This document shows, piece after piece, positions 4,946 to 29,500 of a stretch of DNA of 64,000 nt. The position numbers and the translations under genes were made by a program. This stretch comes from a virus, in the IMG/VR virus record IMGVR_UViG_3300036766_001106, positions 1 to 64,000 of that record; one strand, 5' to 3'. The notes beneath the pieces are model-generated. The model made no database searches. It worked only from the letters and a program-made list of their open reading frames with translations, and was not told the origin of the DNA. Position 1 is the first letter of the stretch. Each line of letters opens with the position of its first letter.

Positions 4946-5380
4946 ATGAGCGAAGGACTGACTAAAGGGCAAGTGAAGAATTATCTGGAAGGGCCAGGAA
5001 ATTGTCCTCGGTGCGGGTCTGATAGAACCGCGGCCTTGAGCGATGATTCCCGTGATGAGTTTACCGACAACGGCGGCGAAATCCAACGGGAGCTTGTCTG
5101 CGCCGAATGTAAGAAAATGTGGCGGGAGTATTTCAAACTCCACGACCTTGAGGCGCTGGACGAAGATGGGTGCGCCATTCCCAACGAGGAGGACAAGACC
5201 CATACCCAAGAAGCCTTTGACATGGGCAGGGTGGCGTTCCAGCGGGGAGTGCCATGTGTCCCTGCCCTTGATGGCGACTACCTAAAACACCTATTCCCGA
5301 CCCTTGGTGAGAACGTGGAAGCCACGAAGGCATGGATTATGGGTTGGACGACTGAAAAACTGAAGGAGCCGACGACATGA
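4946..5380 (+). CDS. Zinc-ribbon protein (144 aa), unknown role
   Basis: It has an N-terminal zinc ribbon, CPRCGSD (about residues 20-26) and CAECKKMW (about 52-59), of the kind seen in small nucleic-acid-binding proteins. The C-terminal half resembles an ordinary helical domain (EAFDMGRVAFQRGVPCVPAL, KAWIMGWTTEKL), and phage proteins ending in an AWIMGW-like helix are common but uncharacterised. The start follows CGGAGGGCAAC. The gene is preceded by the second copy of the leader repeat. No more precise function can be given. Confidence 0.7.
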   Translation: MSEGLTKGQVKNYLEGPGNCPRCGSDRTAALSDDSRDEFTDNGGEIQRELVCAECKKMWREYFKLHDLEALDEDGCAIPNEEDKTHTQEAFDMGRVAFQRGVPCVPALDGDYLKHLFPTLGENVEATKAWIMGWTTEKLKEPTT

Positions 5381-5473
5381 ACGACGACCCGCCTGGTCTA
5401 TCAGGCGGTGCAGCCGGAGCAACTGGACACCCTGCGGACCTTTGCCCGGCAATTTAAGCCGAGCATCCGCTAA
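5377..5473 (+). pseudogene. Possible frameshifted mini-gene (about 30 codons)
   Basis: An ATG at 5377 overlaps the previous stop (ATGA) but opens only a Gly/Ala-rich 26-codon frame. A different frame over the same bases reads RLVYQAVQPEQLDTLRTFAR and ends at 5473, which looks like a real peptide but has no start. Removing one base near 5385 would join the ATG to that frame. It may be a broken small gene or a sequencing error. Confidence 0.35.
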
Positions 5474-6884: not shown

Positions 6885-7088
6885 ATGAAAATTAAAAACA
6901 TTAAGGCTCTGGGGTACGCCAAGGGGCAACTGCTGGCCTATGAATTAGCCGCAGAATATTACCCGGACATAGGGGATATTGAGGCTAACTGGCAAACCTT
7001 CAAAGATGCAGTTTTGGAGGGTATGGACTTGGCAAGACGAGATGGTTACTACCGGGGAGGCTACGATGACCAGACGCAAAATCCCTGA
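6885..7088 (+). CDS. Hypothetical protein (67 aa), second edge-matched cassette
   Basis: It starts MKIKNIKALGYAKGQLLAYE after GGAGGGAAG and ends in DDQTQNP, as does the gene before it. It resembles small helical phage proteins with a Glu/Asp-rich loop and has no known function. Its last 23 bases overlap the start of the recombinase gene in another frame. The core differs from the upstream cassette. Confidence 0.6.
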   Translation: MKIKNIKALGYAKGQLLAYELAAEYYPDIGDIEANWQTFKDAVLEGMDLARRDGYYRGGYDDQTQNP

Positions 7089-7089
7089 C
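7064..7089 (+). repeat. 26-bp direct repeat, copy 2
   Basis: It covers the start codon and first eight codons of the recombinase gene and the last codons of the gene before it. It is identical to 6832-6857 and is probably the source copy. Confidence 0.85.
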
Positions 7090-7674
7090 GTTCTCCTGGC
7101 GGGGGAACAAGAGCTTATCCTGAAACAGTTCCTTGGGACCGACGAGGGGAACGGCCACCGCCGTGGCCGGCCCCTTAACCCCTTCACCCGGCTCCGCAAC
7201 CTCTGCCTGGTGCGCCTGATGCTTAACTCGGGGCTTCGTTGCTCGGAAGCCTTACACCTACGGTGCCGGGACCTGGAGCCTACCACCGGCAGGCTCAAGG
7301 TGCTGGGGAAGGGGAAGAAGGAGCGGATGCTTTGGCTCTGTGAGGCCGATGTCAACCTTCTCCTGGGATACTTCGACAATCACCCCGGGAACCCTGAGGA
7401 CTTTATTTTTACTAACCTCAAGGGCGGGCCCTTGAAAGGTCGGTATGTTCGCTGGATGGTGGGTGAGGTGGCCCGGGCCGCCGGGATCACCAAGAATATT
7501 CATCCCCACAGCTTGCGGCACACCTTCGCCACGGACCTGCTGCGGGCCACCAAGAACCTCAGGGTGGTCCAGAAGGCCCTGGGGCATGAGAATATCGGGA
7601 CCACGCAGATTTACACGCACATCGTGGATGAGGAATTGGAGGATGCAATGAAAAACTTTAGGAATGGAGGGTGA
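7066..7674 (+). CDS. Compact XerC/D-like tyrosine recombinase (202 aa)
   Basis: A site-specific recombinase that cuts and rejoins DNA through a catalytic tyrosine. The catalytic residues are visible: Arg58 (SGLRCSEAL), Lys82 or Lys84 (GKGKKER), His148-Arg151 (HSLR), His174 (LGHENI) and Tyr183 (IYTH). It is shorter than typical integrases and has only a remnant of the N-terminal core-binding domain. That suits XerC/D-like resolvases or small phage recombinases rather than the main integrase, which is at 21917. The ATG follows GGGGAGGCTACG. The next gene starts two bases past its stop. It may resolve genome multimers or act on the inverted repeat at 7891. Confidence 0.85.
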   Translation: MTRRKIPDVLLAGEQELILKQFLGTDEGNGHRRGRPLNPFTRLRNLCLVRLMLNSGLRCSEALHLRCRDLEPTTGRLKVLGKGKKERMLWLCEADVNLLLGYFDNHPGNPEDFIFTNLKGGPLKGRYVRWMVGEVARAAGITKNIHPHSLRHTFATDLLRATKNLRVVQKALGHENIGTTQIYTHIVDEELEDAMKNFRNGG

Positions 7675-7675
7675 G

Positions 7676-7909
7676 ATGGGTAAGGCACGCGTTAATGCAC
7701 CAGCAGAAATATGTCCATGTTGCGGGAGAAGGATTCCTGGCTCTGCCAAGTCGAACAGGGATAAAAGGGACCTTGAAATCTTTCGGCTCTACAAACATGG
7801 CCATTCCTATAGGTTTCTGATGGAAAAATTTAATCTTTCGGCGAGTGCGATTCGGTGGGCTATTCGCAGGGGGGAACGCAGGGGGGAAGCCCTGGCGGCT
7901 ACGGCTTAA
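7676..7909 (+). CDS. Zinc-knuckle plus helix-turn-helix protein (77 aa)
   Basis: CPCCGRR near residue 13 suggests half of a metal site. The rest, DLEIFRLYKHGHSYRFLMEK then FNLSASAIRWAIRRGERRG, looks like a helix-turn-helix of the transposase or sigma-4 type with a basic recognition helix. It may regulate the operon or help the recombinase. The ATG follows GGAGGGTGAG, immediately after the recombinase stop. The last codons form the left arm of the inverted repeat at 7891. Confidence 0.6.
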   Translation: MGKARVNAPAEICPCCGRRIPGSAKSNRDKRDLEIFRLYKHGHSYRFLMEKFNLSASAIRWAIRRGERRGEALAATA

Positions 7910-7941
7910 TGTGGCGCAAATCTTTTGCCGTAGCCGCCAGG
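7891..7941. repeat. 15-bp perfect inverted repeat between convergent genes
   Basis: CCTGGCGGCTACGGC (7891-7905) and its exact complement (7927-7941) flank a 21-base loop. The element spans the end of the helix-turn-helix gene and lies 11 bases from the stop of the convergent HU gene. Neither side has a T-run, so it is either a Rho-independent terminator of poor form or a recombination or protein-binding site. Confidence 0.7.
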
Positions 7942-7951
7942 TGCCGACTTC

Positions 7952-8224
7952 TTACTCCACCGCTTCCTTGAACGACTTCGCCGGCCTGAACTTCACCACT
8001 TTTCGCGCCGGGATCTTCACGGGGCCCCCGGTCTGAGGATTTCGGCCTACCCGAGCCGCCCGTTCCACCAGGGTGAAAACTCCGACGCCATCCATGGCGA
8101 ACCGGCCGGTGTGCTGCACCTGGCTCACGATGATGTCCTTGATCCGGTTTACCGCGAGCTCGGCCGCCCACCTGGTGATGGACGCTTCCTTTGCCACTTC
8201 ACTGATCACTTCTGCTTTGGTCAT
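7952..8224 (-). CDS. HU/IHF-family DNA-bending protein
   Basis: The 90-residue length and sequence fit the family: MTKAEVISEVAKEASITRWA, a FTLVERAARVGRNPQTGGPV beta-arm with the conserved RxGRNPxTG, and a KVVKFRPAKSFKEAV C-terminus. HU and IHF bend DNA as dimers and help replication initiation and site-specific recombination. Its position beside the repeat-rich candidate origin and near the recombinase fits such a role. The family members are similar enough that HU versus IHF cannot be told from this sequence. Confidence 0.9.
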   Translation of the reverse strand: MTKAEVISEVAKEASITRWAAELAVNRIKDIIVSQVQHTGRFAMDGVGVFTLVERAARVGRNPQTGGPVKIPARKVVKFRPAKSFKEAVE

Positions 8225-8250
8225 GGTGGTCTCCTTTTAGATTATGGGGT

Positions 8251-8430
8251 CTATAACCCCTCTTTAATGCTCATAGCGGTTTTAGATACTTTCCCTTCTC
8301 GGTACTCCCGGCAGATGGGGTTGTCGATCAAGAGCCCTTCCTGGTAGTAGAAACAGAAAGCCGGGAAACCCTTCTCAAGCTCTTCGATCATATACTGCGG
8401 ACAATTAACCTCGCGACAGGTCTGAGCCAT
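8251..8430 (-). CDS. Small Cys-containing protein (59 aa)
   Basis: It starts at ATG 8430 after GGAGGCGTCCA and encodes MAQTCREVNCPQYMIEELEK, with Cys at 5, 10, 26 and 40. The Cys residues could bind a metal. It is not recognised. It is the gene nearest to the candidate origin on its left side and probably shares a transcript with HU. Confidence 0.55.
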   Translation of the reverse strand: MAQTCREVNCPQYMIEELEKGFPAFCFYYQEGLLIDNPICREYREGKVSKTAMSIKEGL

Positions 8431-8517
8431 TGGACGCCTCCTCTGCTACTTTTGGTCATGGTGCTGGTCTCCTTTTGGTGGGGTCTTCGTTTTCTGCAAA
8501 AACCTGATACCGGGTCG

Positions 8518-8555
8518 ATGCGGTACAGTACCGCATGTTTTTCGCGATGCGGGAC
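8518..8555. repeat. 19-bp palindrome and first CGATGCGGGAC copy
   Basis: ATGCGGTAC-A-GTACCGCAT (8518-8536) is a perfect palindrome around one base. CGATGCGGGAC follows at 8545-8555. Both share a GATGCGG core. Confidence 0.8.
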
Positions 8556-8594
8556 CACATAACTTGTTATAATAATAAGCGAATAAAGCCAAAA

Positions 8595-8666
8595 GTACCG
8601 GGTACCGGGTAAAACGCAAAAATATGAACATGTGAAAAGTTTTTTGGAAGCGGTACCCGGTACCCG
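8595..8666. repeat. Inverted pair of GTACCGGG repeats
   Basis: Tandem GTACCGGGTACCGGGTA (8595-8611) faces CGGTACCCGGTACCCG (8651-8666) across about 40 bases. They share a 13-base core on opposite strands. Confidence 0.75.
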
Positions 8667-8693
8667 TCATGCTTGTTAGTCAGCACTGGTGCG

Positions 8694-8734
8694 GTCCCGC
8701 ATCGATATCCGCGATGCGGGACGGTCCCGCATCG
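8694..8734. repeat. Three further CGATGCGGGAC copies
   Basis: GTCCCGCATCG at 8694-8704, its complement CGATGCGGGAC at 8712-8722 and GTCCCGCATCG again at 8724-8734. The first two make an inverted pair with a seven-base spacer. Confidence 0.8.
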
Positions 8735-8802
8735 ATCCGGGACCGGAAAAAAGGGATAAAAACTTTTTTGTAAATTTTATTCAGCGCGTGCCCTGCACTT
8801 GG

Positions 8803-9843
8803 TTAAGAATCTTCACGCTCTCTTCCGTCCATTGTTTTCTTAAATACCATCTCTTTTATCTCTTCCGACATACCATCCAGGTTCATACACCAGGCGCGGA
8901 CGTTCTGGCGGTTCCATTTAAACTGCTCCGGTTCATGCCCCAAGCTGGGTAGGAGGATGGTTAATTTCTTGATGGTTTTATATCCGAGCATCCTGGCTTC
9001 CATAAACAGTTCGGAGACCCGGGAATATAATTTCGGCTTCTCGCCTTTGCGTTGCACGATAAAAAAGGCTACATGGTGAGGGATGGACTGGTTTGACGAG
9101 AAATACGTCAAACCCCGGTAACGTTCTATATAGGTGTTCAGAAATTCCCGCAACTCACCAAGGGTGCTGGATTCCTGCCCCACGTCCTGCTGGATGGACA
9201 GCCGGAATATTTGCCTGACGACTTCATGCCAGGCGCCGCCCCCCTTTGGTTCAGCGATTTTTTTGGGCACCAGCAGGCCGGCCTGGGCGAATCTTTTGAT
9301 GAAGAGGCGTTGTTCGACGAGGTCCGCTGCCGTGATCATCACGCTGTCGTCTTCGCCCAGGGAAAATTCCAGGACGGAGTCATCGCTCTGGGTGACCCGG
9401 ATGTCGCTGATGGGCAGGCTCAGACGTTCACCTAAGCCCTGCAGGGCGGCCTGGCGCTGTTCTTCCCAGGATAGGGTATTGGGTTCGGATGTCGCCTTCC
9501 CTTCTTGCGCCCCGGTTTTGATCCGTTTTCGAGCCTCCATGCGGGCGACACTGGCAACACTAGCTTGGAGTTCTTTATCAGGCAGGGGTTCGGTGTTTTT
9601 TGTGTTCCAGGCCCGGAGCATTTCCAATACTCGGGGTTCTGGGTCGCCGCCGCCCAGGTAGAATCCTGCTAGTTTTGCGGCGACGCTATTGCGTTCCCCT
9701 ACAGGCACCCCCCTCCAGGCAACAGTCACCCAATCTTCATCAGGAGGGAGCAGGTCACCTTGAGCAAGCTCTACCAGGGCGACTTCCCGTTCGATAAAAT
9801 CCAGCATCCAGGGGGGAGGAACGGCTATATTTTCCTGGGCCAT
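8803..9843 (-). CDS. Primase C-terminal (PriCT-1-like) replication protein (346 aa)
   Basis: Residues about 45-110 (WRGVPVGERNSVAAKLAGFY through LPDKELQASVASVARMEARK) match the PriCT-1 domain, which follows the catalytic part of phage and plasmid primases. The rest is helical, with basic segments likely to bind DNA, and has no helicase motif. Its partner is the preceding gene, which carries the prim-pol catalytic domain, so the enzyme seems split over two genes. The ATG at 9843 follows GAGG after the upstream stop. An in-frame ATG at 9858 overlaps that stop and is also possible. The stop is next to the candidate origin. Confidence 0.75.
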   Translation of the reverse strand: MAQENIAVPPPWMLDFIEREVALVELAQGDLLPPDEDWVTVAWRGVPVGERNSVAAKLAGFYLGGGDPEPRVLEMLRAWNTKNTEPLPDKELQASVASVARMEARKRIKTGAQEGKATSEPNTLSWEEQRQAALQGLGERLSLPISDIRVTQSDDSVLEFSLGEDDSVMITAADLVEQRLFIKRFAQAGLLVPKKIAEPKGGGAWHEVVRQIFRLSIQQDVGQESSTLGELREFLNTYIERYRGLTYFSSNQSIPHHVAFFIVQRKGEKPKLYSRVSELFMEARMLGYKTIKKLTILLPSLGHEPEQFKWNRQNVRAWCMNLDGMSEEIKEMVFKKTMDGREREDS

Positions 9844-9850
9844 AAGTCCT

Positions 9851-10306
9851 CTAGTCATCCAAGTTCATAAACTCGTTCCATTCATAATCACCGCCTCTGG
9901 GATGTCTTGAAGGTGGTGCCACGACGTAGCCCCCATCGGCCTTGATGTCGGCACCGGGGATTTTCTTGAGGGAGTTCTTGATCTTGCCTCCCGGGTGCTT
10001 GAAATAAAGATGGTACTTTCCCCCACTGGTTTTTACCATGGGGGTTATCGGCAGATTATGGTTGTTTTGTTTCAGCCATGCCTCGAAGGTGGTGGGGTCG
10101 TCCACATCCAGCACGAAGATACCCGAGACTGCCCCGCAGACGATGGCGACTTGATCTAACAGCCCTTTATCTCGCCATTCTTTGACTTCATCCTGGGTGG
10201 GGCGGCGGGTTTGGTAAACGGCCCAAGCAAAGAGAGGCTTTTTGCTATTTTTGCGAAGCGGAAAGAAAGAAAACCCGTGTTTTTGGTATAGTTCAATGAG
10301 GTCCAT
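9851..10306 (-). CDS. Primase-polymerase (AEP) catalytic domain protein (151 aa)
   Basis: Matches the bifunctional primase/polymerase N-terminal family, which makes primers for replication. Visible parts are FPLRKNSKKPLFAW (phosphate contact), IFVLDVDDP (the DxD metal ligands), SGGKYHLYFKHP and GADIKADGGYVVAPPSRH. The protein ends straight after the catalytic fold, while related primases continue into a PriCT domain. That domain is encoded by the next gene, which starts about at this stop. The start is well placed after AGGAG. Expected to act with the ssDNA-binding protein encoded just upstream. Confidence 0.9.
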   Translation of the reverse strand: MDLIELYQKHGFSFFPLRKNSKKPLFAWAVYQTRRPTQDEVKEWRDKGLLDQVAIVCGAVSGIFVLDVDDPTTFEAWLKQNNHNLPITPMVKTSGGKYHLYFKHPGGKIKNSLKKIPGADIKADGGYVVAPPSRHPRGGDYEWNEFMNLDD

Positions 10307-11726: not shown

Positions 11727-12080
11727 TTATAACCCGTTTCCATCACCGCGCCGGACGGAGGCTCGCCGGGCCGCGGCCGCTTTCTTCTCCTGGTCTTCCC
11801 CCAGCGCCGGGGTGAACAATCCATATTCCAGGGACAGCTTGGCCCCGTCCATGAAAATCATCTGCCGGGTGGACAGCTTCATAGAGGCATGGGCCAGGCC
11901 ATGGGTGCGTACCCACCGGGACCCCAGCCACCGAAACAAGAATACCCCCACCTCATCCACCAGGAGGCGAATATCCCCTTTTCCCCAGGTACTCCATCCC
12001 TGCCCCTCCCAACCACAACTATTTAGCAGGGCAACTAGCTTTCCCCGGGGATTCTTTTCGTAATTTTCGCTGTTGGGCAC
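11727..12080 (-). CDS. Hypothetical early protein (117 aa)
   Basis: A compact protein (LNSCGWEGQGWSTWGKGDIR, VDEVGVFLFRWLG, KLSLEYGLFTPALGEDQ) with a basic, Arg/Ala-rich C-terminus. It is not recognised. The GTG start at 12080 has no clear ribosome binding site and lies inside the end of the Cro-like gene, a 62-base overlap, so coupling or a later start is likely. Confidence 0.5.
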   Translation of the reverse strand: MPNSENYEKNPRGKLVALLNSCGWEGQGWSTWGKGDIRLLVDEVGVFLFRWLGSRWVRTHGLAHASMKLSTRQMIFMDGAKLSLEYGLFTPALGEDQEKKAAAARRASVRRGDGNGL

Positions 12081-12306
12081 GGCAGTTCCGGGAAATATGA
12101 TGAATTAAATAGGGAATCAAGTCTTTGAGCCGGGGCTTCAGATCCAAAATGTCGATGGAGTAGCCCTCCTCTTCGAGGAGGTCCACGATCTTCATGGCCA
12201 TACCATCCGGCAGCTTGCGTTTGCCATGGTTCCAACGAGAAACCAGGGACTTGTCGACTCCCAAGACCGGAGCGAATCGTACCGGAATTTTAAAGATGGG
12301 TTTCAT
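12019..12306 (-). CDS. Cro-like helix-turn-helix regulator (95 aa)
   Basis: The N-terminal part reads RFAPVLGVDKSLVSRWNHGK then RKLPDGMAMKIVDLLEEEGY, a Cro/YdaS-type helix-turn-helix with the recognition helix DKSLVSRWN. The rest is a basic tail that may help DNA binding. It is divergent from the cI-like gene across 300 bases, as in lambdoid switches, so it probably represses the lysogenic promoter and favours lytic growth. The start at 12306 has no ribosome binding site but lies seven bases after a -10-like TACCTT. That suggests a leaderless mRNA. An in-frame start further upstream lies within the promoter. Confidence 0.7.
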   Translation of the reverse strand: MKPIFKIPVRFAPVLGVDKSLVSRWNHGKRKLPDGMAMKIVDLLEEEGYSIDILDLKPRLKDLIPYLIHHISRNCRAQQRKLRKESPGKASCPAK

Positions 12307-12313
12307 AATCTGG

Positions 12314-12342
12314 AAGGTATGACAAGCTGGCAACGATTGCAA
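12314..12342 (-). promoter_or_regulatory. Candidate promoter of the Cro-like gene
   Basis: TTGCAA (12342-12337), 17-base spacer, TACCTT (12319-12314). The ATG begins seven bases further on, at the expected start of transcription. Confidence 0.5.
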
Positions 12343-12375
12343 GAAGTTTTTATTTCATTAAACGCTTTTTTTTGG

Positions 12376-12403
12376 TTGACTTTTTGGCACAGATGACTAT
12401 AAG
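12376..12403 (+). promoter_or_regulatory. Candidate plus-strand promoter in the switch region
   Basis: TTGACT (12376-12381), 16-base spacer and TATAAG (12398-12403). The direct repeat GATGACT (12392-12398 and 12403-12409) lies across the -10 and may be an operator. A transcript from here would have a 200-base leader before the repressor start. Confidence 0.5.
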
Positions 12404-12433
12404 ATGACTCCTAGGGATTTTCGGAAGCTATTT

Positions 12434-12448
12434 TTAGGGAATCCCTAA
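12434..12448. promoter_or_regulatory. Candidate operator palindrome
   Basis: TTAGGGAATCCCTAA is a perfect 15-base palindrome centred on one A, in the middle of the divergent region between the Cro-like and cI-like genes. A related CCTAGGGATT lies 30 bases to its left. Confidence 0.55.
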
Positions 12449-12531
12449 TAGCAATTAAGGGGGATAATCATCTAAAATAGGAGGAAGGCGCATCGGCGCC
12501 CTCGGGAAAAAATGCTGGAAACTTTAATTTC

Positions 12532-12555
12532 ATCAAAATCAACATCAAAATCAAT
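12532..12555 (+). repeat. Tandem ATCAAAATCAA repeats
   Basis: Two 12-base copies, ATCAAAATCAAC and ATCAAAATCAAT, followed by a partial third, upstream of the repressor promoter. They may be regulator-binding sites. Confidence 0.55.
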
Positions 12556-12572
12556 TAAATCAAGGAATTATC

Positions 12573-12603
12573 TTGACAGGAGGTTGACTAATTGGCTTAT
12601 AAT
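12573..12603 (+). promoter_or_regulatory. Candidate repressor promoter
   Basis: TTGACA (12573-12578) and a perfect TATAAT (12598-12603) are separated by 19 bases. The repressor ATG begins seven bases after the -10, so the transcript would start at or very near the start codon, as lambda cI does from PRM. Confidence 0.5.
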
Positions 12604-12610
12604 TGGCGCT

Positions 12611-13228
12611 ATGATAAACGAGCGTATCCGAGCGTTAATGCGGGCGCGGGGCTGGAAGATCAAGGATCTGGCCGACGAAATCGAACGGCTGAGCCCTGCC
12701 CAAAAAATTCATCAATCTCAACTCTCCCGGATGCTTGCCGGCAAACGCCAGTGGCTCATGCCTCACTTGGAGATCGTGGCAAAAGCCCTTCGAGTACAAG
12801 TAGGGGATTTGGCTGACGAAACTGTCGCCATCCCCGTTGTTGCAGAAATTTCTGCTACCCAAAACTGTCTGTATCCTGATAGTACTGAGGACAGAAATTT
12901 GGGGTACTTGCCACTACCACGCATCATTGCCGAAAAAAAGGACTGGCCAATGGCAGAAGAACTTTACGGGATAAGGATTAAGGACGAGAGTTATGCCCCG
13001 GTAATCTCCAAAGGGGCGGAACTGATCGTCCAGCGCCACGGGGAGAAGAAGGAGGAGGACCTGGTAATCTATTGCGATACGAGCAACAGAATGTACCTTG
13101 GCCGCCTATTTTTTCACGAGGGCAACCTGCTGCTCCGTTCCCTCAACTCCAGCACCCAAAAAGATATGATTTTACCTCGGCGCCTGTTGTCGAACATGGA
13201 CCGGGTAGTCGCCCAACTTTTCATCTAA
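12611..13228 (+). CDS. cI-like repressor with helix-turn-helix and S24-type domain
   Basis: A 205-residue phage repressor. The N-terminal helix-turn-helix spans about residues 5-68 (MINERIRALMRARGWKIKDL, QSQLSRMLAGKRQW, LEIVAKALRVQVGDL). The C-terminal half resembles the LexA/S24 peptidase fold used for dimerisation: GIRIKDESYAPVISKGAELI contains the Ser127 that aligns with the catalytic serine. The lysine expected after it seems replaced (MYLGRLFF, Gly164-Arg165), and no Ala-Gly cleavage site is seen in the linker, so self-cleavage on SOS induction may be lost. The start at 12611 is chosen because the upstream in-frame codons read through a promoter. A strong terminator follows the stop. Confidence 0.85.
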   Translation: MINERIRALMRARGWKIKDLADEIERLSPAQKIHQSQLSRMLAGKRQWLMPHLEIVAKALRVQVGDLADETVAIPVVAEISATQNCLYPDSTEDRNLGYLPLPRIIAEKKDWPMAEELYGIRIKDESYAPVISKGAELIVQRHGEKKEEDLVIYCDTSNRMYLGRLFFHEGNLLLRSLNSSTQKDMILPRRLLSNMDRVVAQLFI

Positions 13229-15311: not shown

Positions 15312-18300
15312 GTGATTGGGCCTCCAGGGACAGGCAAAACCACTTACCTATCCCGCCAGGTGGAGCGGGCCGCGGAGAAGTACGGGGCCGACGGCGTTAT
15401 GGTGTGCTCATTCACCCGGGCGGCCGTGGCTGAGATGAACAGCCGGCAACTGCCCATCCCCAAGGAGCAGATCGGTACCCTCCACGCTATGGCCTACCAT
15501 GCCCTCGGGATGCCGAAGATAGCTGAGACCGCGCAATATTTGAAACAGTTTTCCGAGGAACACCCTGCCTATGAAATTGACGACCCCACCCGGGACGGGA
15601 TTGAGGATGGGTATTCTCAGGGGGGGAAGACTCCAGGGGCCAAATTCTTACAAGAATATTCCCGGCTCCGGTCGCTGATGCGCCCCCCCGACGCCTGGCC
15701 TGAGTCAGTCCAGGGTTTTGCCAGGGTGTGGGAGAAGTTCAAAGACGAGGTTCATGCCGTTGACTTCACCGATCTTATTTCGGTGTGCCTGAAAGAACAG
15801 ATTATGCCGAAGTTTGAGGCGGCTATCGGCATGTTCGATGAGGCCCAGGACTTCACCCCTCTCGAATTGGCCTTAGTAAGACTGTGGGGAAAGGACTTGG
15901 AGAAATTAATCCTGGTGGGGGACGGAGATCAGTGCCAGCCATCCGGAACGCTTGTGGAAACTACGCAGGGGCAAGCTCTAATTGAAGACCTTGACCCCGA
16001 GATTCACACATTGCAAACCTTTGATCGCCCTGGCAGCACCATTATCAGGCTTAAACGTCCACCTTCTGCATCGCATAGCTTTGAAAAAGCATGTCGAATT
16101 TATGACGGCATATTGGTAATGATAGCGGCTGGCCCTGCTAAATCGGAATATACCGCAGATCATCAATGCTTGGTGAGGTGGACCGAGGAAGCGAGAACAA
16201 AATGTGTCGTGTATTTAATGAAGCAGGGCCCTCGCTGGCGTATAGGCTGGTGCCAATTGTTCAAGGGAAGAGGGAAGCAACTTGGATTTCATTTAAGCGT
16301 GAGAGCCAGGCTAGAAAATGCTGATGCAGTGTGGATACTAAAAACTACTTCCAATAGACAAGATGCCTCATGGTGGGAGTCATTCTATGCTGCTCACTTT
16401 GGGATACCTCAGATAACCTTTAATCCAATTCAAAGCAGTATCCATTTTACTAAAGATTTTCTAGATAGCTTGTGGGCTATGCACGACATTAATTCTGATT
16501 TAACCAATAGAGCGTATGAATGTTTGGCATATTGCAATAAATCAATGCAGTATCCATTTTACAAGAAAAACAATAGAAACCATTGGGGGGGCAAAGCATC
16601 ATTAATGCTTGTCAGAGCAATTAATCTTGAACCTTATATTATGTCTGTTCCTGTCGATACGGGCGTCCTGGCCCCCACTTGGTATCCAATTCAAAAATCA
16701 ACGAGACATTATTTTGGAGAAGTCCATAGTTTAAATGTTAGGCCCCATCATTATTATATAGCTGACAAAATCATCACTCATAACTGCATTTATTCGTTCA
16801 AAGGCGCCGTCCCCCGCCTTGGCCTTGACCCCAGCATTCCTATTATCATTCTCAAACAATCATACCGAGTCTCACAGGCCGTCCATGAGTTTTCCGAGCA
16901 AGTAATCAACCTTATCCCCCCGGAAGAGCGGTTGCAACGGGAATACCTGCCTACTGCCGAGCCGGGCGAGGTGTTGGAGCTTAATGGAACCTATAAGCAT
17001 CCGGAGGCGTGGTTTGACGTGGTGCAAAAGCACCTGGACCAATATCAAACCGTGATGATCCTGGCTTCCTGCTCCTATATGCTGACTCCAATCATTCAGT
17101 TTCTCAAACAGGAAGCTATTCCCTACAGCAATACCTACCGTCGTAAGCGGCGGGATTGGAACCCCCTGATCCACACGACCCGGCAGACCACCGCCGCCAC
17201 TAGGGTGCGGGACTACTTTGCCGGTTGGCGCCGGAATCCCATGAACTGGACCGGCGGAGAGTTAGGTCGCTGGCTCCCCCTGGTGGCCAACGTTCTCAAG
17301 CGAGGGGGTAAGGAGAAGCTGGCCAATATTCTGTCAGATCAAGAAGCGCCCGTGGACTTGATCCATGAGGTTCTGCCAATGGAGCAGATGCAGGCGGCGG
17401 GGGCGGAGTGGATACTGGATCACCTTTCAGCGGCTCATCGTCCTGCTGAATACCATGTGCGGGTAGGGTTAAGGGCCTGGGAAGATTTGGAGATTGAACC
17501 GGCCTTGACCATAGGGACGGTGCATTGCTCGCCTTCAGATGAACTTATTCTAACAACAGACGGGTGGATACCCATTGGCAAATTAGACCCATCTTTTCAT
17601 AAAGTGGCTGGATATAATAAAAAAACAAATTCTTTACATTGGGGTGGAGACTGGAGAGGGAAGGAAAGAGATTGTTCAAACAAAAGGTATAACTTTAAAA
17701 TTAGTAAAAATAAGCATGTTGGCCCCCTGGTTGTGCTTGACACAGATATATCTATGACAAGAGTTACGCCTAACCATCTCATTCCCACAAGATTTAATGA
17801 TGATTTTATGGAAAAATATGTAGTTTATTTAATGAAACGAGCCAACTGGTGGAGGATTGGTATTTGCGTTTCCGCACATAGACCATATAGAAGTGGTGGG
17901 GTGAATGGCAGACTTGCAACGGAACAGGCTGATTTTGGATGGATTTTAGGAGTGTATGAGACAAGGAAAGAAGCTGTTATAGCAGAAGAAATTTTTAGAG
18001 GGAAGTATGGGATTACTGGATTAACATTTCAAGCTGCTAAAGCAAGAGCATTGAATGATGATGATTTGCATCATATTCACGATGAAATTAATGGAAGCAT
18101 AGACAAAAGAGTAACAAAACTATTAGAAGATTGCCATTTAAACGAAGAATGGCCACTTTATTCCAGAGCCCCCCTTCGTGGAGATGTAATTAAAAGGAAT
18201 ATGAGAGGTATTTTTGTAACAGAAGCAGCCAATTTAATAAAGCTATCTGGATATATAGACATGCTTGTTCCGCCAGAGGGGTTTGTTAGAAGCGACCCTG

Positions 18301-18632
18301 GTGGAAATAGCAAAAGAGGCTGCTGGACTCCTGCATTTATGAGAAGTGAAGTAACTATAGAAGATTACAATGGATATGTTTTTGGCATAGAGGTTCCACC
18401 TCATCATTATTATCTTTCGGGCGGGAATATTGTGCATAATTCAGTAAAAGGCGGGGAGGCCGACGCCGTGATCCTATTCGCTGACCTCTCTCCGGAAGCT
18501 GCCAAAGCAGTCCGCCAAGGCGAGATCGGCCCAACGGCCAGGATGTTTTTTGTTGGGGCGACCCGGGCGCGGACTTCGCTTTACTTGGGAAAAGCAGCTA
18601 ACTCGGGGTTTGCGTTGAAGTGGCCAGGGTAA
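15312..18632 (+). CDS. UvrD/Rep-like superfamily-1 helicase precursor with two inteins
   Basis: The precursor is 1106 residues. After removal of the two inteins the helicase is 517. Extein motifs are IGPPGTGKTTYLSRQ (Walker A, at the very N-terminus), SFTRAAVAEM, FDEAQDFTPLELALV (motif II) and LVGDGDQ/CIYSFKGAVPRLG (motif III, with intein 1 at the slash). LKQSYRVSQ (motif IV), IGTVH/SVKGGEADAVILF (motif V, with intein 2 at the slash) and FFVGATRARTSLYLG (motif VI) follow. Both inteins thus sit inside catalytic motifs, and the protein can work only after splicing. The GTG start at 15312 follows AAGGAG. The N-terminus lacks the usual helix before Walker A, which is common in phage members. The stop overlaps the VRR-NUC start (TAATG). 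Confidence 0.9.
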   Translation: MIGPPGTGKTTYLSRQVERAAEKYGADGVMVCSFTRAAVAEMNSRQLPIPKEQIGTLHAMAYHALGMPKIAETAQYLKQFSEEHPAYEIDDPTRDGIEDGYSQGGKTPGAKFLQEYSRLRSLMRPPDAWPESVQGFARVWEKFKDEVHAVDFTDLISVCLKEQIMPKFEAAIGMFDEAQDFTPLELALVRLWGKDLEKLILVGDGDQCQPSGTLVETTQGQALIEDLDPEIHTLQTFDRPGSTIIRLKRPPSASHSFEKACRIYDGILVMIAAGPAKSEYTADHQCLVRWTEEARTKCVVYLMKQGPRWRIGWCQLFKGRGKQLGFHLSVRARLENADAVWILKTTSNRQDASWWESFYAAHFGIPQITFNPIQSSIHFTKDFLDSLWAMHDINSDLTNRAYECLAYCNKSMQYPFYKKNNRNHWGGKASLMLVRAINLEPYIMSVPVDTGVLAPTWYPIQKSTRHYFGEVHSLNVRPHHYYIADKIITHNCIYSFKGAVPRLGLDPSIPIIILKQSYRVSQAVHEFSEQVINLIPPEERLQREYLPTAEPGEVLELNGTYKHPEAWFDVVQKHLDQYQTVMILASCSYMLTPIIQFLKQEAIPYSNTYRRKRRDWNPLIHTTRQTTAATRVRDYFAGWRRNPMNWTGGELGRWLPLVANVLKRGGKEKLANILSDQEAPVDLIHEVLPMEQMQAAGAEWILDHLSAAHRPAEYHVRVGLRAWEDLEIEPALTIGTVHCSPSDELILTTDGWIPIGKLDPSFHKVAGYNKKTNSLHWGGDWRGKERDCSNKRYNFKISKNKHVGPLVVLDTDISMTRVTPNHLIPTRFNDDFMEKYVVYLMKRANWWRIGICVSAHRPYRSGGVNGRLATEQADFGWILGVYETRKEAVIAEEIFRGKYGITGLTFQAAKARALNDDDLHHIHDEINGSIDKRVTKLLEDCHLNEEWPLYSRAPLRGDVIKRNMRGIFVTEAANLIKLSGYIDMLVPPEGFVRSDPGGNSKRGCWTPAFMRSEVTIEDYNGYVFGIEVPPHHYYLSGGNIVHNSVKGGEADAVILFADLSPEAAKAVRQGEIGPTARMFFVGATRARTSLYLGKAANSGFALKWPG
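15933..16784 (+). mobile_element. Intein 1 (284 aa) at helicase motif III, with GIY-YIG-like core
   Basis: It starts with Cys (CQPSGTLVETTQGQALIEDL, block A), has block B in YTADHQCLVRW and ends PHHYYIADKIITHN, followed by Cys as first extein residue. The central region begins VVYLMKQGPRWRIG and continues with Arg in SVRARLEN and Glu in WWESFYAAHFGI, a pattern like the GIY-YIG nuclease fold and not LAGLIDADG or HNH. The DNA is visibly more AT-rich than the flanking extein. All splicing residues are present, so splicing should work. Homing activity is unknown. Confidence 0.9.
17526..18440 (+). mobile_element. Intein 2 (305 aa) at helicase motif V, with GIY-YIG-like core
   Basis: It starts with Cys (CSPSDELILTTDGWIPIGKL), has block B MTRVTPNHLIP and ends PHHYYLSGGNIVHN, followed by Ser as first extein residue. 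The core VVYLMKRANWWRIG, Arg in NGRLATEQAD and Glu in AEEIFRGKYGITGLTF parallels intein 1. The later IFVTEAANLIKLSGYIDMLV also matches the corresponding part of intein 1. Thus the two are related, although they sit in different motifs. It is AT-rich compared with the extein. Confidence 0.9.
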
Positions 18633-20834: not shown

Positions 20835-21641
20835 ATGGCAAAAGTTTTAGAAACAAACAATTATGGCAAGTTCGTATTGTCGCCGTTTAACCGGGAAGTA
20901 AAAAAGACATGGCGCCTTGAACAGTCCCTACTCAAGTATGGGTGGCTTGATGAATACCCAATGCCTGTTTTCAGACTACCTGATGGCTTGCTACGGATAG
21001 AAGATGGCCACAACCGTTTCTATTCGGCCCGCAAACACGGCATCCCTGTCAAATATATCGAAACCAAGAGCCAGATAACCCAGGCCGAGAGGGATGGAAC
21101 CCATACCACCTGGAGTCTCCAAGACTATCTGTGGTCTTTCGCCCAGAACAATTTTGAGGCTTATCAGGCCGTATTTGACTACCACAGGAAAACCGGAATC
21201 AAGTTGAACGCCTGTATCTCCATGTTAAGTGGGTTGAGTGCCGGGTCAGGTAACTGGAGAAAGCAATTCAAAGAAGGTACTTACCGTTTAGGTGATCCGG
21301 CCCATGCAAACCTTGTCGCGGACCTCGTGGCCCATTGCAGGAAACATGAATTCCTCTACTGGAACGATACGCCTTTTGTCAATGCCCTCTCTAAAATCGC
21401 CTGGGCCGAAGTTTTTAATCCACATGTTTTGAAGAACAAGATAACCGCGTTCCCCGAGCAAATGAAGAAGCACGGGAAAAGAGAGGAATATGTCGATATG
21501 CTGGAGACGATTTACAACCGCTATAGCAAAGACCTGGTGCCTTTGGCTATTAAGGCAGAGGAAGCCGCCAGGAAAAGAGAGCTTGGAAGAGGAACGCCCA
21601 AAGCCAAAACCAACGCCCTGGCGTCCCAAGTGCACGTGTGA
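20835..21641 (+). CDS. ParB/sulfiredoxin-fold protein (268 aa)
   Basis: LRIEDGHNRFYSARKHGIPV matches the ParB/Srx motif (G-H-x-R), which forms a phosphate-binding loop that can bind CTP or cut DNA. The N-terminal part (FNREVKKTWRLEQSLLKYGW) is typical of the ParB N-terminal domain. The rest is helical and basic at the end. Together with the preceding DUF3102-like gene it may take part in partitioning or in regulating replication. No ParA ATPase is encoded in the window. Confidence 0.75.
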   Translation: MAKVLETNNYGKFVLSPFNREVKKTWRLEQSLLKYGWLDEYPMPVFRLPDGLLRIEDGHNRFYSARKHGIPVKYIETKSQITQAERDGTHTTWSLQDYLWSFAQNNFEAYQAVFDYHRKTGIKLNACISMLSGLSAGSGNWRKQFKEGTYRLGDPAHANLVADLVAHCRKHEFLYWNDTPFVNALSKIAWAEVFNPHVLKNKITAFPEQMKKHGKREEYVDMLETIYNRYSKDLVPLAIKAEEAARKRELGRGTPKAKTNALASQVHV

Positions 21642-21880: not shown

Positions 21881-21910
21881 TTGCACTTGAACCAACTCCT
21901 TCAATATACT
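21881..21910 (+). promoter_or_regulatory. Candidate integrase promoter
   Basis: TTGCAC (21881-21886), 18-base spacer and TATACT (21905-21910). The ATG is six bases after the -10, with no ribosome binding site, so the transcript is probably leaderless. Confidence 0.5.
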
Positions 21911-21916
21911 CTCTGC

Positions 21917-23095
21917 ATGGCAGGTCATATAAGAACCCTGCATAAATGCCCTTCCTGCGGGAAACCCTATCCGAAGGAACTGGTCTGCTGCAACACCCGG
22001 CCCACCCGGTATTTCATCGACCTCTGGTGGCAGGGCCGCCTCAAGATTTACACCGACCCCCAGGGCTACCCCCTGGACTCCTACGCCCGGACGGAGCAAC
22101 TTCTTTCCACCATCCGCCACCAGATCGGCGCCGGCAAGTTCGATCCCCGGGAGTACGTCAGGAAGGAAATCAAGGGGCTCCTGTTCGAGAATTACATCCA
22201 GACCTGGCTTGAGCGCCGGGATCTGGAGTTGGAGCGGGGCCATATCTCTAAGGCTTATATGAGAGAGGTCAGGCGATATATTCGCCTTTATTTCGTTCCC
22301 TTTTTTGAGCGTAAGAGCATCCGGGACATCCGGGAGGGGGACCTGGAGGATTTTAAAAATTCCCTGCCGACGAATCTAGCCAACAAGACCATCAGAAATA
22401 TCTTGGGGGTGCTCCATAAGATTTTTGCCGATGCCTTCCACAAGCGCCGGGACATTGCCTATCTGCCGAAGTTCCCCGAAGTCCCCAAAGACGATCCCCT
22501 GACGCAATGGCTCCCGCCCCGGGACCAGGAACGAGTCTTGCGGCGCATCAAGGAGCCCTACAAATCCTTTTTCATCTGCCTGATGGAGTTGGGTTGCCGG
22601 CCCGGGGAACTCCGGGCCTTAAAATGGGGCCTGGTGGACCGGGAACGCCGCCTCATCACCATCGCGGCGGGCTTCGATTTGGAAACCTGGAAACCCTACA
22701 CCAAGACCCGGCAGAACCGCACCATCCCCTATAATCAGAAGGTACAGGATTGCCTGGACCGGCAGCCCCGGAGCCTGACGGGGTTCGTGTTCGTGAACAG
22801 CAAGGGGAAGTACCTGTCGCACCGGCGCCTCGACACGGTATGGTTCCAGGCGGCCCGGGCCTGCGGCATCGAAGTCAATCTTTACCAGGCCACCCGGCAC
22901 AGTTTCGCCACTCAGAAGATCGCCGCGGGATTCAGCCGGGACAAGGTGGGCCAGATGATGGGCCACCGGACGGCCGCCATGACCCAGAAATATGAGAAGG
23001 TGGTAGCGGAGAGCCTGCGGGACTTAGTGGCGGACTGTCCGTCTGGGACTGTCCGTAAACTGTCCGTGAACAAAAACGGACAAAATAAACCTTAG
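21917..23095 (+). CDS. int: Phage integrase, tyrosine recombinase with N-terminal zinc knuckle
   Basis: A 392-residue integrase for insertion of the phage into the host chromosome. It begins with CPSCGKPYPKELVCC (residues 11-25), an N-terminal zinc site, then an arm-binding region and a SAM-like core-binding domain (about 85-185). The catalytic domain has Arg228 (GCRPGELR), Arg327 (YQATRHSFAT; the usual box II His is a Gln here), His350 (MMGHRT) and Tyr359 (TQKYEK). The C-terminal coding region carries three direct repeats that look like arm sites. The start at 21917 lies six bases past a -10-like TATACT. A tRNA-3'-end att sequence follows 29 bases after the stop, confirming the role. Confidence 0.93.
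   Translation: MAGHIRTLHKCPSCGKPYPKELVCCNTRPTRYFIDLWWQGRLKIYTDPQGYPLDSYARTEQLLSTIRHQIGAGKFDPREYVRKEIKGLLFENYIQTWLERRDLELERGHISKAYMREVRRYIRLYFVPFFERKSIRDIREGDLEDFKNSLPTNLANKTIRNILGVLHKIFADAFHKRRDIAYLPKFPEVPKDDPLTQWLPPRDQERVLRRIKEPYKSFFICLMELGCRPGELRALKWGLVDRERRLITIAAGFDLETWKPYTKTRQNRTIPYNQKVQDCLDRQPRSLTGFVFVNSKGKYLSHRRLDTVWFQAARACGIEVNLYQATRHSFATQKIAAGFSRDKVGQMMGHRTAAMTQKYEKVVAESLRDLVADCPSGTVRKLSVNKNGQNKP
23034..23067 (+). repeat. Three ACTGTCCGT direct repeats (integrase arm sites, left)
   Basis: Copies at 23034-23042, 23048-23056 and 23059-23067 lie inside the end of the integrase gene. A reverse TGTCCGT lies at 23076-23082. Spacing of 11-14 bases fits arm-type sites. Confidence 0.7.
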
Positions 23096-23123
23096 TGTTC
23101 ATGCGGGTTTCGGGGGTAGTTCT

Positions 23124-23151
23124 ACGGGTTCAAGTCCCGTCGCTCACCCCA
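23124..23151 (+). other. attP: attP core: 3' end of a tRNA gene
   Basis: ACGGGTTCAAGTCCCGT is a perfect tRNA T-arm, and it is followed by CGCTCACCCCA, which reads as the 3' acceptor strand, discriminator and CCA. Only this tRNA end is present, so it is not a tRNA gene. Phages often carry a tRNA 3' end as attachment core, and the site lies beside the integrase, with phage genes on both sides. The window therefore shows the free phage and not a prophage. The acceptor strand implies a host tRNA starting GTGAGCG. I could not assign its amino acid. Confidence 0.8.
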
Positions 23152-23202
23152 ATGAAAACCTTGGGAAATCAGGATCTTTGCCATATAGAAAGACATTGAA
23201 AG

Positions 23203-23222
23203 TGTGTCCGTAGACTGTCCGT
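23203..23222 (+). repeat. Two TGTCCGT repeats (integrase arm sites, right)
   Basis: TGTCCGT at 23205-23211 and ACTGTCCGT at 23214-23222 match the three copies on the other side of the att core. The interval between 23223 and 23288 shows no gene. Confidence 0.65.
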
Positions 23223-26185: not shown

Positions 26186-26548
26186 TTACCCATCACGCCC
26201 TTTCAGGTAAACCACCACGGTCACGGTGTAGCCGCTCACCCCTGGGTCGCCCGAGATGGTGCATTTCAGGGTGTTTCTGCCGCTCAGGATGCGGCGGATG
26301 GTGACCCCGAACTCAAAGTCATAGTTAGCGTTATGGGCTTTGGCCGTGCCGTCAAACATCTGGAAGCCGTCTTCGTCCTCCAGGGTGAGTTGCGCCGTTC
26401 TGGAATTGGTGTTGGAACTATTGCGCTGGTGAATCCACAGCAGTTCCCCTTCCAGAGCCAGGACCAAACTCTGAATCAAACCGGCCTCGGCCGCGCCGCT
26501 GGCGAACTGGAAGACAACCTTTCTCCTAAGATAGCGTTCTGGTTTCAC
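26186..26548 (-). CDS. Predicted phage structural protein (120 aa)
   Basis: A beta-rich protein: LWIHQRNSSNTNSRTAQLTL, DEDGFQMFDGTAKAHNANYD, SGYTVTVVVYLKG. Such composition is common in phage virion proteins. No family is recognised. The stop of the giant gene and this start overlap (ATGA), so it belongs to the late operon. Confidence 0.6.
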   Translation of the reverse strand: MKPERYLRRKVVFQFASGAAEAGLIQSLVLALEGELLWIHQRNSSNTNSRTAQLTLEDEDGFQMFDGTAKAHNANYDFEFGVTIRRILSGRNTLKCTISGDPGVSGYTVTVVVYLKGRDG

Positions 26549-29500
26549 AGACCCACCTCCTTTTCTTCCGGCTTCATTCGATAGCCGGTCATAAATCCAG
26601 GGCTGATTTTACGGAAACCCATTATATGCTGCCAGGCGGCCCGCTCCGCCCTTGTTGGTTTGTCCAGCAGGTTCGAGAATCGGTAAGGCTTCATCACGTC
26701 TTCCGGCTTCTTGAGAACAGGCTGGTAATCCTCCCGGGCCTGGCGGATGGTTTTGATCAGATACCGTTGGCGCTGAGCCTCGTCCATCCGCAGGAGGCGG
26801 GGGAGGTCTTTCTGGATGGAATCGTAGGCATCGCCCACGCTCTCAACGGTCATTTTATAATACTCATCTAAATCGACTGACTTGCGGGTGCCCGCCTCCG
26901 TCTTAAACCGGGGAGGCATCTGGAGGGCCTGGGCCACTTCCGGGTCCATCAAGGCTTGCCCCACCTTGGCCACCTGCACGATCTTTTCATCCAGGGCGTC
27001 CAGCTTGGTTCGTTTTTGTTCCGAAGTCAGGGTCTTGGAGAGGTAGATGGAATTCCTTTCCTTCTTGATTTTCCCCAACTCGTCTACCTTTTTGCGGGCG
27101 ACCCGGGCGAACATGGCCTCGGGGTTGTCGGCCAGGAACTTATCCAGCTTATCCATGCTCCCGGAGTTCCACAGGAGCTTCCAGCCTTGGTCTGCCTGAA
27201 TAGCTTTTTGGTAAGCCTCAAAGAAGTCGTTTACCGTCTTGGCCCGGTAGCCGGTGGGCGGTTTGGTGAAGAAAGCCCTCACCCCCCAGATTCTTTCGAT
27301 GGTGTCTTTGGTGGGTTGGGGAATATCTTCCAGGGCCCCGGTTTTCCGCAAGAGCACGTCGATGCCTGGGAAGAAATAGTTGGCCCCCAGGCCGCCAGTC
27401 ATGGACCGCACGAAGTGTTCCACCTTCACCGGGCTCAGTTCCATCATGGCGGGCGTATGGCGGCTAATGGCCTTGGCCAGTTCCGAAGTCCAGGGTTTGG
27501 CCCTCAGTTCTGCAGGGAGGTTCTGTAAGCTCGCATCCTCGATAGGGCGCCCTGTAAACCAGTTATAGTTGGCGCCACCTTCCACGATGGGACGTACGAT
27601 GGCGGGGATGAAGTCAGGGGTTAACGCCTGCCAAGCCGCCCCCAGAGCCGCTTTTACCCCGTTGATATTCTTATCGACGGCCCAATCCAGCATCCGCTCC
27701 GGTATGGACCCGAAGAGAATCCCAGCCTCGAAGGGTTTGGGGAGGCGGACCATGGGGCTGTTTTTCCCGCCCAGGGGGATGTGCCAAAAATAATTCTTCT
27801 CCCAATCCTCCAGTTCCTTGTAGCGGTCGTCTTGGTGGGCCAGGGTCCATAAAAGGATGGAGGCCGTGGTGAGCAGGGACATCCGGCGCATCACCGCCCA
27901 TTTGTTAGGGCCAGAAAGCTCGGTGATCAGTTTGTCCGCTCCCTGAATGGAAGCGTTCCAGAAGGGGACGATCATATTGAGGTAGCGAACTATCGGATGC
28001 CCGCCGTGTCGAGCAAAATCCAAGGTAGTGCGCCGGGCCTCGTGAATCGCCTCGGCATGACTCAAACCCTTCTCCCGGGCCTGCTTGTAGATACTGAAGC
28101 GGGTCATATTCTCCAAGTAGGCAGAGGCATAACGCAGGGCCGCAAGCGGGTGAGCATGATAAACCATGCCTTTTTTCTTCCCCATGATGGTCTCGCTGGT
28201 GATCTGTTCCGGATCCACAAAGGATTGAGCCAACGTCGCCAGAGGACCACCGCCGGCCTCCCACTCCCGACGATACCTCGCGGTATCTTCATCCTTGACC
28301 ACCAAACTGTAAGCGTCCCTGAACCACTTGAGGGGGTTGAACCCGAACCGGCTGAAAAGATAGGCTTGAATGATGTCCCGGGCGGGGTTTCGAGCCAGGG
28401 CGAATTCCGGGGTCATTATAGCGCCAGCCCGCAACAGGTCAGCCGGCGCCTTGGCCACCTTCAGCAGAATCCCGATCTCCGATGGCATCATGCTCTGGGT
28501 CGCCTGGAAAATGTCCGGGGGCACCTTGAGCCACAACTGCTTGCCGTCCCGGTAGTACGGAATGGTCCCAGGTTCCGGGGGGAGGGGGGACCGGGCCCAG
28601 ACCCGATTCATCGCCTCCAACATCCCGGCCTGGTGAGAAAGTTTGAAGGTCAGGAGGGGCCTCAGCTTGTCGTTTTGCCGCAGATAACCCTCAAACTTCG
28701 CCAGGGCGTTGGGAGCCAGGCGCTCCACCGACCTCTTGTCGATGATGTAGCGGCTGACAAACTCCGCCACCTGTTCCTCTTTTTTGCGAATATACCGTTT
28801 ATAAGAACTGGAGGGGTTGTCGGCCCGTTGGTCGGCAATGCGGCGCAGTTCCCGCTTCATCTCCGGGGTGCCTTGCTCGATGAGCAGCTTCACCAGGCCG
28901 TAAGCGTCGTCGATCCCATGGCCCACCTCATGCGCCAGGGTCGCCTCGAAGGTGGCAAACCTCACCTGGATCTCTTTCGCCACCTCCGACGTTATCCCGC
29001 CGGACTGAACCTCCTGGCTGAGCCATTTCTTGAACTGCCCCAGGCGCCGGCTGCGCATCGTGCCCATGACCTTAACGTCAATCCCCAGGGCCTTGGCCAG
29101 CTTGACCAGTTGGGGCCGCAACACCGCGTCGATCTCTTGCTTCTGCTTGAAATCAACCGGCAGGTACTTGGCTGCCACTTCCTTGATGTCCGGGTCGCCG
29201 TATTCGCCCAGCACCGCGATGTTTTGCACCACGTAATTCCGGGCGAAGGCGTAGTTGGCCTTGTAAGCCAGTTCGATCCACATCTGCAACGGGTCCAGGA
29301 TGACCCTCTCCGAACCTTCGATTTTTTGGATCACTCGGCCCTTGATTCCCAGGGCCGCGGCGTTGGCGTTGATGTAGTCGTCGATGTCCTCCATCAGGCG
29401 CTTGAAGGGGATATAAAATTCATTTTTGGCTTTGATCTCATCATAACGGGCTTGGTCAATGAACCCCACCTGCAGGAGGGGTTGCAAGATGGTCTGGTCG

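Follow-up and report, generated by a model that had tools for sequence, protein, structure and literature searches.

What is the function of the non-coding gap that separates the primase and HU genes of this phage and is filled with short repeats? The window, i.e., the whole 64,000-nt stretch analysed, is part of a 70,983-nt (~71-kb) temperate phage contig. In the order of transcription, its minus strand carries a Prim-Pol N-terminal domain ORF (9851-10306, PF09250 match), a PriCT_1 ORF of 351 aa that represents the C-terminal half of the initiator/primase (8803-9858, PF08708 match), the gap of 372 nt (8431-8802), a 59-aa ORF (8251-8430), and an HU-family gene (7952-8224). The two primase ORFs overlap, and both lie directly upstream of the gap. 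Two copies of the ribosome-binding site plus start of HU (AAAAGGAGACCA..ATGACCAAA) are present, at ~8459 and ~8224 (window 8231-8470), with the 59-aa ORF between them; this apparent duplication plus insertion was not seen in the two related contigs L004 and L005. Elsewhere in the window, the motifs of a UvrD-like helicase ORF (1106 aa, 15312-18632) are broken by two apparent intein insertions, the second of which has a weak Pfam intein match, and the minus strand of 26545-40614 is a single 4689-aa ORF; stretches that look by eye like a methyltransferase and a helicase suggest that it encodes a polyvalent protein. The 12-nt unit CCGGTGGGGTTT is found three times in tandem at L019 4078-4114 (G000 64078-64114).

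An earlier note had read 8515-8735 as a candidate iteron origin, in which three repeat families surround an AT-rich patch between the primase and HU genes. The repeats lie where the note placed them and exceed chance, but the division into three families did not hold: a single 7-bp core, GCGGKAC, underlies all of the repeats, and the array spans 8510-8743, slightly past the end given before. In a single-register reading, the gap holds seven exact and five one-mismatch cores from 8520 to 8743, which point in both directions and are arranged partly as palindromic pairs and partly in tandem. The four exact copies of CGATGCGGGAC were recovered by coordinates at 8545-8555 (+), 8694-8704 (-), 8712-8722 (+), and 8724-8734 (-), the first of them containing the core GCGGGAC at 8549-8555 (+). 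One-mismatch copies lie at 8516-8526 and 8733-8743, and just two more one-mismatch matches occur in 64 kb. The resulting total of eight copies within one mismatch, against a chance mean of 1.4, was reached in 0/100 shuffles. Apart from single dispersed matches, exact cores cluster in this gap only within the window.

The 19-bp palindrome ATGCGGTACAGTACCGCAT (8518-8536), which was present as the earlier note had claimed, proved to be an inverted iteron pair with cores at 8520-8526 (+) and 8528-8534 (-). Two head-to-head iterons likewise form a 23-bp perfect palindrome, CGATGCGGGAC-G-GTCCCGCATCG, at 8712-8734, and one base separates the halves in each of the two pairs. The inverted GTACCGGG pair was also verified, at 8595-8611 and 8651-8666. 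GTACCGGG reads CCGGTAC, one mismatch from GCGGKAC; its copy at 8595-8611 (-) consists of tandem CCGGTAC half-sites and makes up an inner stem-loop arm, and the inverted partner of this arm is GCGGTACCCGGTACCCG at 8650-8666 (+).

Relatives of the PriCT ORF were found on only two other contigs, L004 (93% identical) and L005/L007 (79%). Prim-Pol and PriCT are two overlapping ORFs in the window and in L004, and are fused into one 522-aa protein in L005/L007; L008-L010 have only Prim-Pol in common with them. Viral-contig scans, genome scans, and phage/plasmid searches found neither this C-terminal domain nor this origin in any additional phage, and the comparison rests on three phages (the window, L004, and L005). 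The gap between primase and HU is kept in L004 and L005, and it contains several constant elements. The box ACTTTTCACAT (8630-8640, -) is invariant in the three phages and palindromic in L005, and AAAACTTTTCACAT is constant in all three gaps. In each of them, the box holds CTTTTCACA, an 8/9 match to the DnaA-box consensus TTWTNCACA; the window has roughly one such one-mismatch box per kb. A second constant element, TTAYGTGGT (TTATGTGGT at 8554-8562, -; TTACGTGGT in L004 and L005), lies 77-78 nt beyond the constant box in each of the three phages. The AT-rich patch of the earlier note is present at 8563-8594 and is a candidate unwinding element; it is modest, with 40-nt windows reaching ~0.68-0.75 AT, and the AT-rich block is constant in the three phages.

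In contrast to this scaffold, the cores are switched. The window has GCGGG/TAC seven times, L004 has GCGGCAC six times, and L005 has GCGCCAC eight times, with zero cross-occurrence among the three gaps; in the remainder of the L004 and L005 records, WRGCGSCACC matches are single and scattered. The observed core number was reached in 0/3000 shuffles for each of the three gaps (dinucleotide shuffles for that of the window). A short repeat in many copies beyond chance and an adjoining initiator gene (the Prim-Pol and PriCT_1 ORFs), both marks of an iteron-type theta origin, are found together.

The sites that carry the different cores are nevertheless kept. Counted from the constant box and with one-mismatch copies included, all three phages have sites in the same orientation at about -26/-23 (<), +30/32 (>), +38/39 (>), +84/85 (<), and +106 (>), and the window and L004 share a further one at +114 (<). 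The core at 8549-8555 is the +84/85 site, kept in both relatives with one mismatch in L004, and the palindrome pair at 8518-8536 has equal offsets (+106/+114) in L004, with the +106 site also in L005. Exact cores at equal offsets number two for the window versus each relative (random placement p 0.02 and 0.04) and five for L004 versus L005, a coincidence that is expected by descent since the region is homologous in these two. In a 155-bp gap-free stretch, L004 and L005 show 11 differences; four of these hit the middle base, one in each of the four iterons, and are always G to C along the core. The p-values for this pattern (1.4e-5 for the four middle positions, 6e-4 for core versus outside) are descriptive, because the stretch was picked after the alignment had been viewed. 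The base pattern has the look that a changed protein recognition at every copy would give.

If a protein reads the cores, the end of the primase is the candidate. Between the window and L004, the PriCT ORF has no codon difference in 1-118 and 236-277, and divergence starts abruptly at codon 278, with 21/37 codons differing in 278-315 (8 synonymous, 13 not). In 278-315, L004 groups with L005 (9/38 codons differ); in 1-118, L004 equals the window, and it is L005 that stands well apart. The divergence between the window and L004 continues from codon 278 across the gap and ends at HU, which is ~82-97% alike in DNA and 87% in protein. With no codon difference just before codon 278 and divergence from there to HU, the last ~75 residues and the origin seem to have diverged, or to have been exchanged, as one block. 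Residues 278-351 (8806-9027, -), which diverged along with the iterons, are therefore the putative DNA-reading domain. This C-terminal domain gave no Pfam, PHROG, or NCBIfam family match; structure prediction yielded a pLDDT of 40 for the 351-aa ORF and a weak model, with a pLDDT of 64, for the C-terminal 126 aa, with which Foldseek and VIA-align retrieved only low-scoring unrelated chains. Since neither family matches nor the model and fold searches were informative, we infer DNA binding by this domain from linkage alone. A likeness of the C-terminus to the winged-helix ends of other phage primases was not confirmed and was set aside.

Taken as a whole, 8510-8743, in which the iteron array flanks the constant box and the AT-rich patch, is probably the replication origin of the phage and of the iteron type. 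The adjoining primase and the phage-specific cores at kept sites point to the iteron-origin reading proposed before; the GC-skew check proposed with it was run and was uninformative, as the skew tracks gene strand and has no turn at 8.6 kb. That the cores are read by the phage's own Prim-Pol/PriCT, through its C-terminal domain, appears reasonably probable from the sequence linkage. In the most probable mechanism, this domain would bind the cores, as dimers on palindromic pairs and as monomers or on half-sites elsewhere, possibly with help from host DnaA or HU/IHF at the constant box. Opening of the AT-rich patch would follow, and the Prim-Pol/PriCT part would synthesize the first primer. Since none of the scanned proteins was recognised as a replicative helicase, the one loaded is presumably that of the host. 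The Rep domain and the iterons would change together as matched partners, in part through exchange of the adjoining 3'-end-plus-origin module and in part through a coherent single-base change at every copy.

The region may instead be an origin or a partition-like site that is read by another phage or host protein, which we regard as unlikely. By eye, the N-terminal sequence encoded at 20835-21641 seemed ParB-like, though it has no Pfam match, and the palindromic form of the constant box in L005 would suit such a reader; however, there was no ParA among the proteins scanned, and the primase C-terminus is the only protein part shown to change next to and together with the cores.

It seems rather improbable that the initiator recognises a structure and not the core sequence, as would be the case in a stem-loop origin like that of pRN1. 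Inverted arms are present at 8510-8536/8714-8740 and 8595-8607/8651-8663, a large imperfect stem-loop can form 3' of the initiator gene in single-stranded DNA, and in all three phages the single strands gave much stronger folds than did shuffles (z -8.0, -4.7, and -6.8). The pRN1 origin is itself a stem-loop 3' of the Prim-Pol gene with poorly conserved sequence (PMC4234260). However, L004 has only a weak inner stem (z -1.3), and the SF3 helicase domain of the pRN1 initiator was not found here, where only Prim-Pol and PriCT_1 were matched. Inverted iterons fold automatically, and sequence alone cannot separate structure from iterons. What bears on the choice is that the same core is also found in same-strand neighbours, for which mutual pairing is not needed, a sharing that pairing alone would not demand. 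Since these same-strand copies switch too, a protein reading of the cores is favoured, and secondary structure as the sole explanation was rejected.

A role of the repeats as operators, either for a phage regulator (the CI-like protein at 12512-13228 or the HTH protein at 12019-12342) or for control of an HU promoter, is quite doubtful. Palindromic sites fit dimeric regulators and the sites do lie upstream of HU, but the divergent regulator gap at 12343-12511 has no exact cores and no sigma-70-like promoter was found in 7900-8900. In L005, an in-frame internal deletion has left an HU remnant of 18 codons (5363-5420), yet its eight cores are intact, and a repressor operator would not predict a switch that tracks the primase C-terminus. 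The arms of attP sites are also short repeats. Although tyrosine recombinase and HU genes are nearby, it is most improbable that the array is the attachment or recombination site of the small tyrosine recombinase (6979-7674), as the DNA for the catalytic part of this enzyme is ~80-97% alike among the three phages, between which the cores switch, and a better attP candidate lies at 23032-23222 by the full-length integrase gene (21881-23095). This likely attP, which overlaps the end of the integrase gene, has arm-like ACTGTCCGT repeats to the left and right of a tRNA 3'-end-like sequence (GTTCTACGGGTTCAAGTCCCGTCGCTCACCCCA); the genome scan for a host gave no exact match to the tRNA-like core.

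Under the reading of an iteron origin recognised by the primase C-terminus, the three phages may, tentatively, form an initiator-origin specificity series within one phage group, GCGGKAC - GCGGCAC - GCGCCAC, with one-base steps at every copy that would be matched by a few residues of the Prim-Pol/PriCT initiator, which is partly split, in a C-terminal domain that had not been described before. A specificity change of a multi-copy origin is hard to see, because all of the copies and the protein must change together; if true, the series would show how it takes place. The three phages would be alternative states, one pair of them with an almost unchanged scaffold. The protein side is narrowed to ~75 residues and, for L004 versus L005, to a handful around LYARATELF/LYARGSALF; the differences between these two are RATEL/RGSAL, KS/KA, and ESER/EREK. 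With so few candidate residues and with alternative core states, the specificity question is testable. An origin type for phages whose PriCT-type primases have no helicase domain of their own would be defined as well.

The probable origin can be compared with lambda O, pRN1, ColE2, and PLE RepA/ori. Lambda O is allele-specific for its iteron origin. In lambdoid phages, the O initiator and its iteron origin form an interchangeable module (PMC3349717, PMC7466680), which is a likeness to the present phages; however, O is not a primase and its ori lies inside O (PMC3349717, PMC7466680), and the domain scan of the window proteins gave no O-like match. A precedent is pRN1, for which a stem-loop region on the 3' side of the Prim-Pol gene is required (PMC4234260). 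Its ORF904 resembles the present system in being a Prim-Pol initiator whose gene is followed directly on the 3' side by a non-coding origin that can fold into a large stem-loop, poorly conserved in sequence, but it has an SF3 helicase and a winged-helix domain, and pRN1 is stated to be without iteron structure (PMC4234260).

For ColE2, primases composed of PriCT-1 and HTH without a helicase domain were reported to unwind DNA (PMC5862659). The ColE2-type Rep (Prim + PriCT-1 + HTH) is likewise a PriCT-1 primase initiator without a helicase domain, with its origin at or just after the rep 3' end (PMC5862659, PMC5304414). Primase and PriCT-1 are both present here (PF09250, PF08708), though in two ORFs; unlike ColE2-type Rep, the Prim-Pol PF09250 domain is a separate ORF, the C-terminal domain has no HTH family match, and the origin is a multi-copy array. 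The PLE satellites of Vibrio cholerae have a RepA_N and an ori that covary, and only cognate pairs replicate (PMC8263062). PLE uses a RepA_N initiator and three ~30-bp semi-palindromic iterons, compared with Prim-Pol/PriCT and 7-bp cores here (PMC8263062). In both systems, the initiator DNA-binding domain, putative in the present phages, and the iteron origin covary between close relatives and the rest of the initiator is conserved (PMC8263062). Unlike in PLE (PMC8263062), one pair of the present phages differs by one base per copy within a scaffold that is almost untouched.
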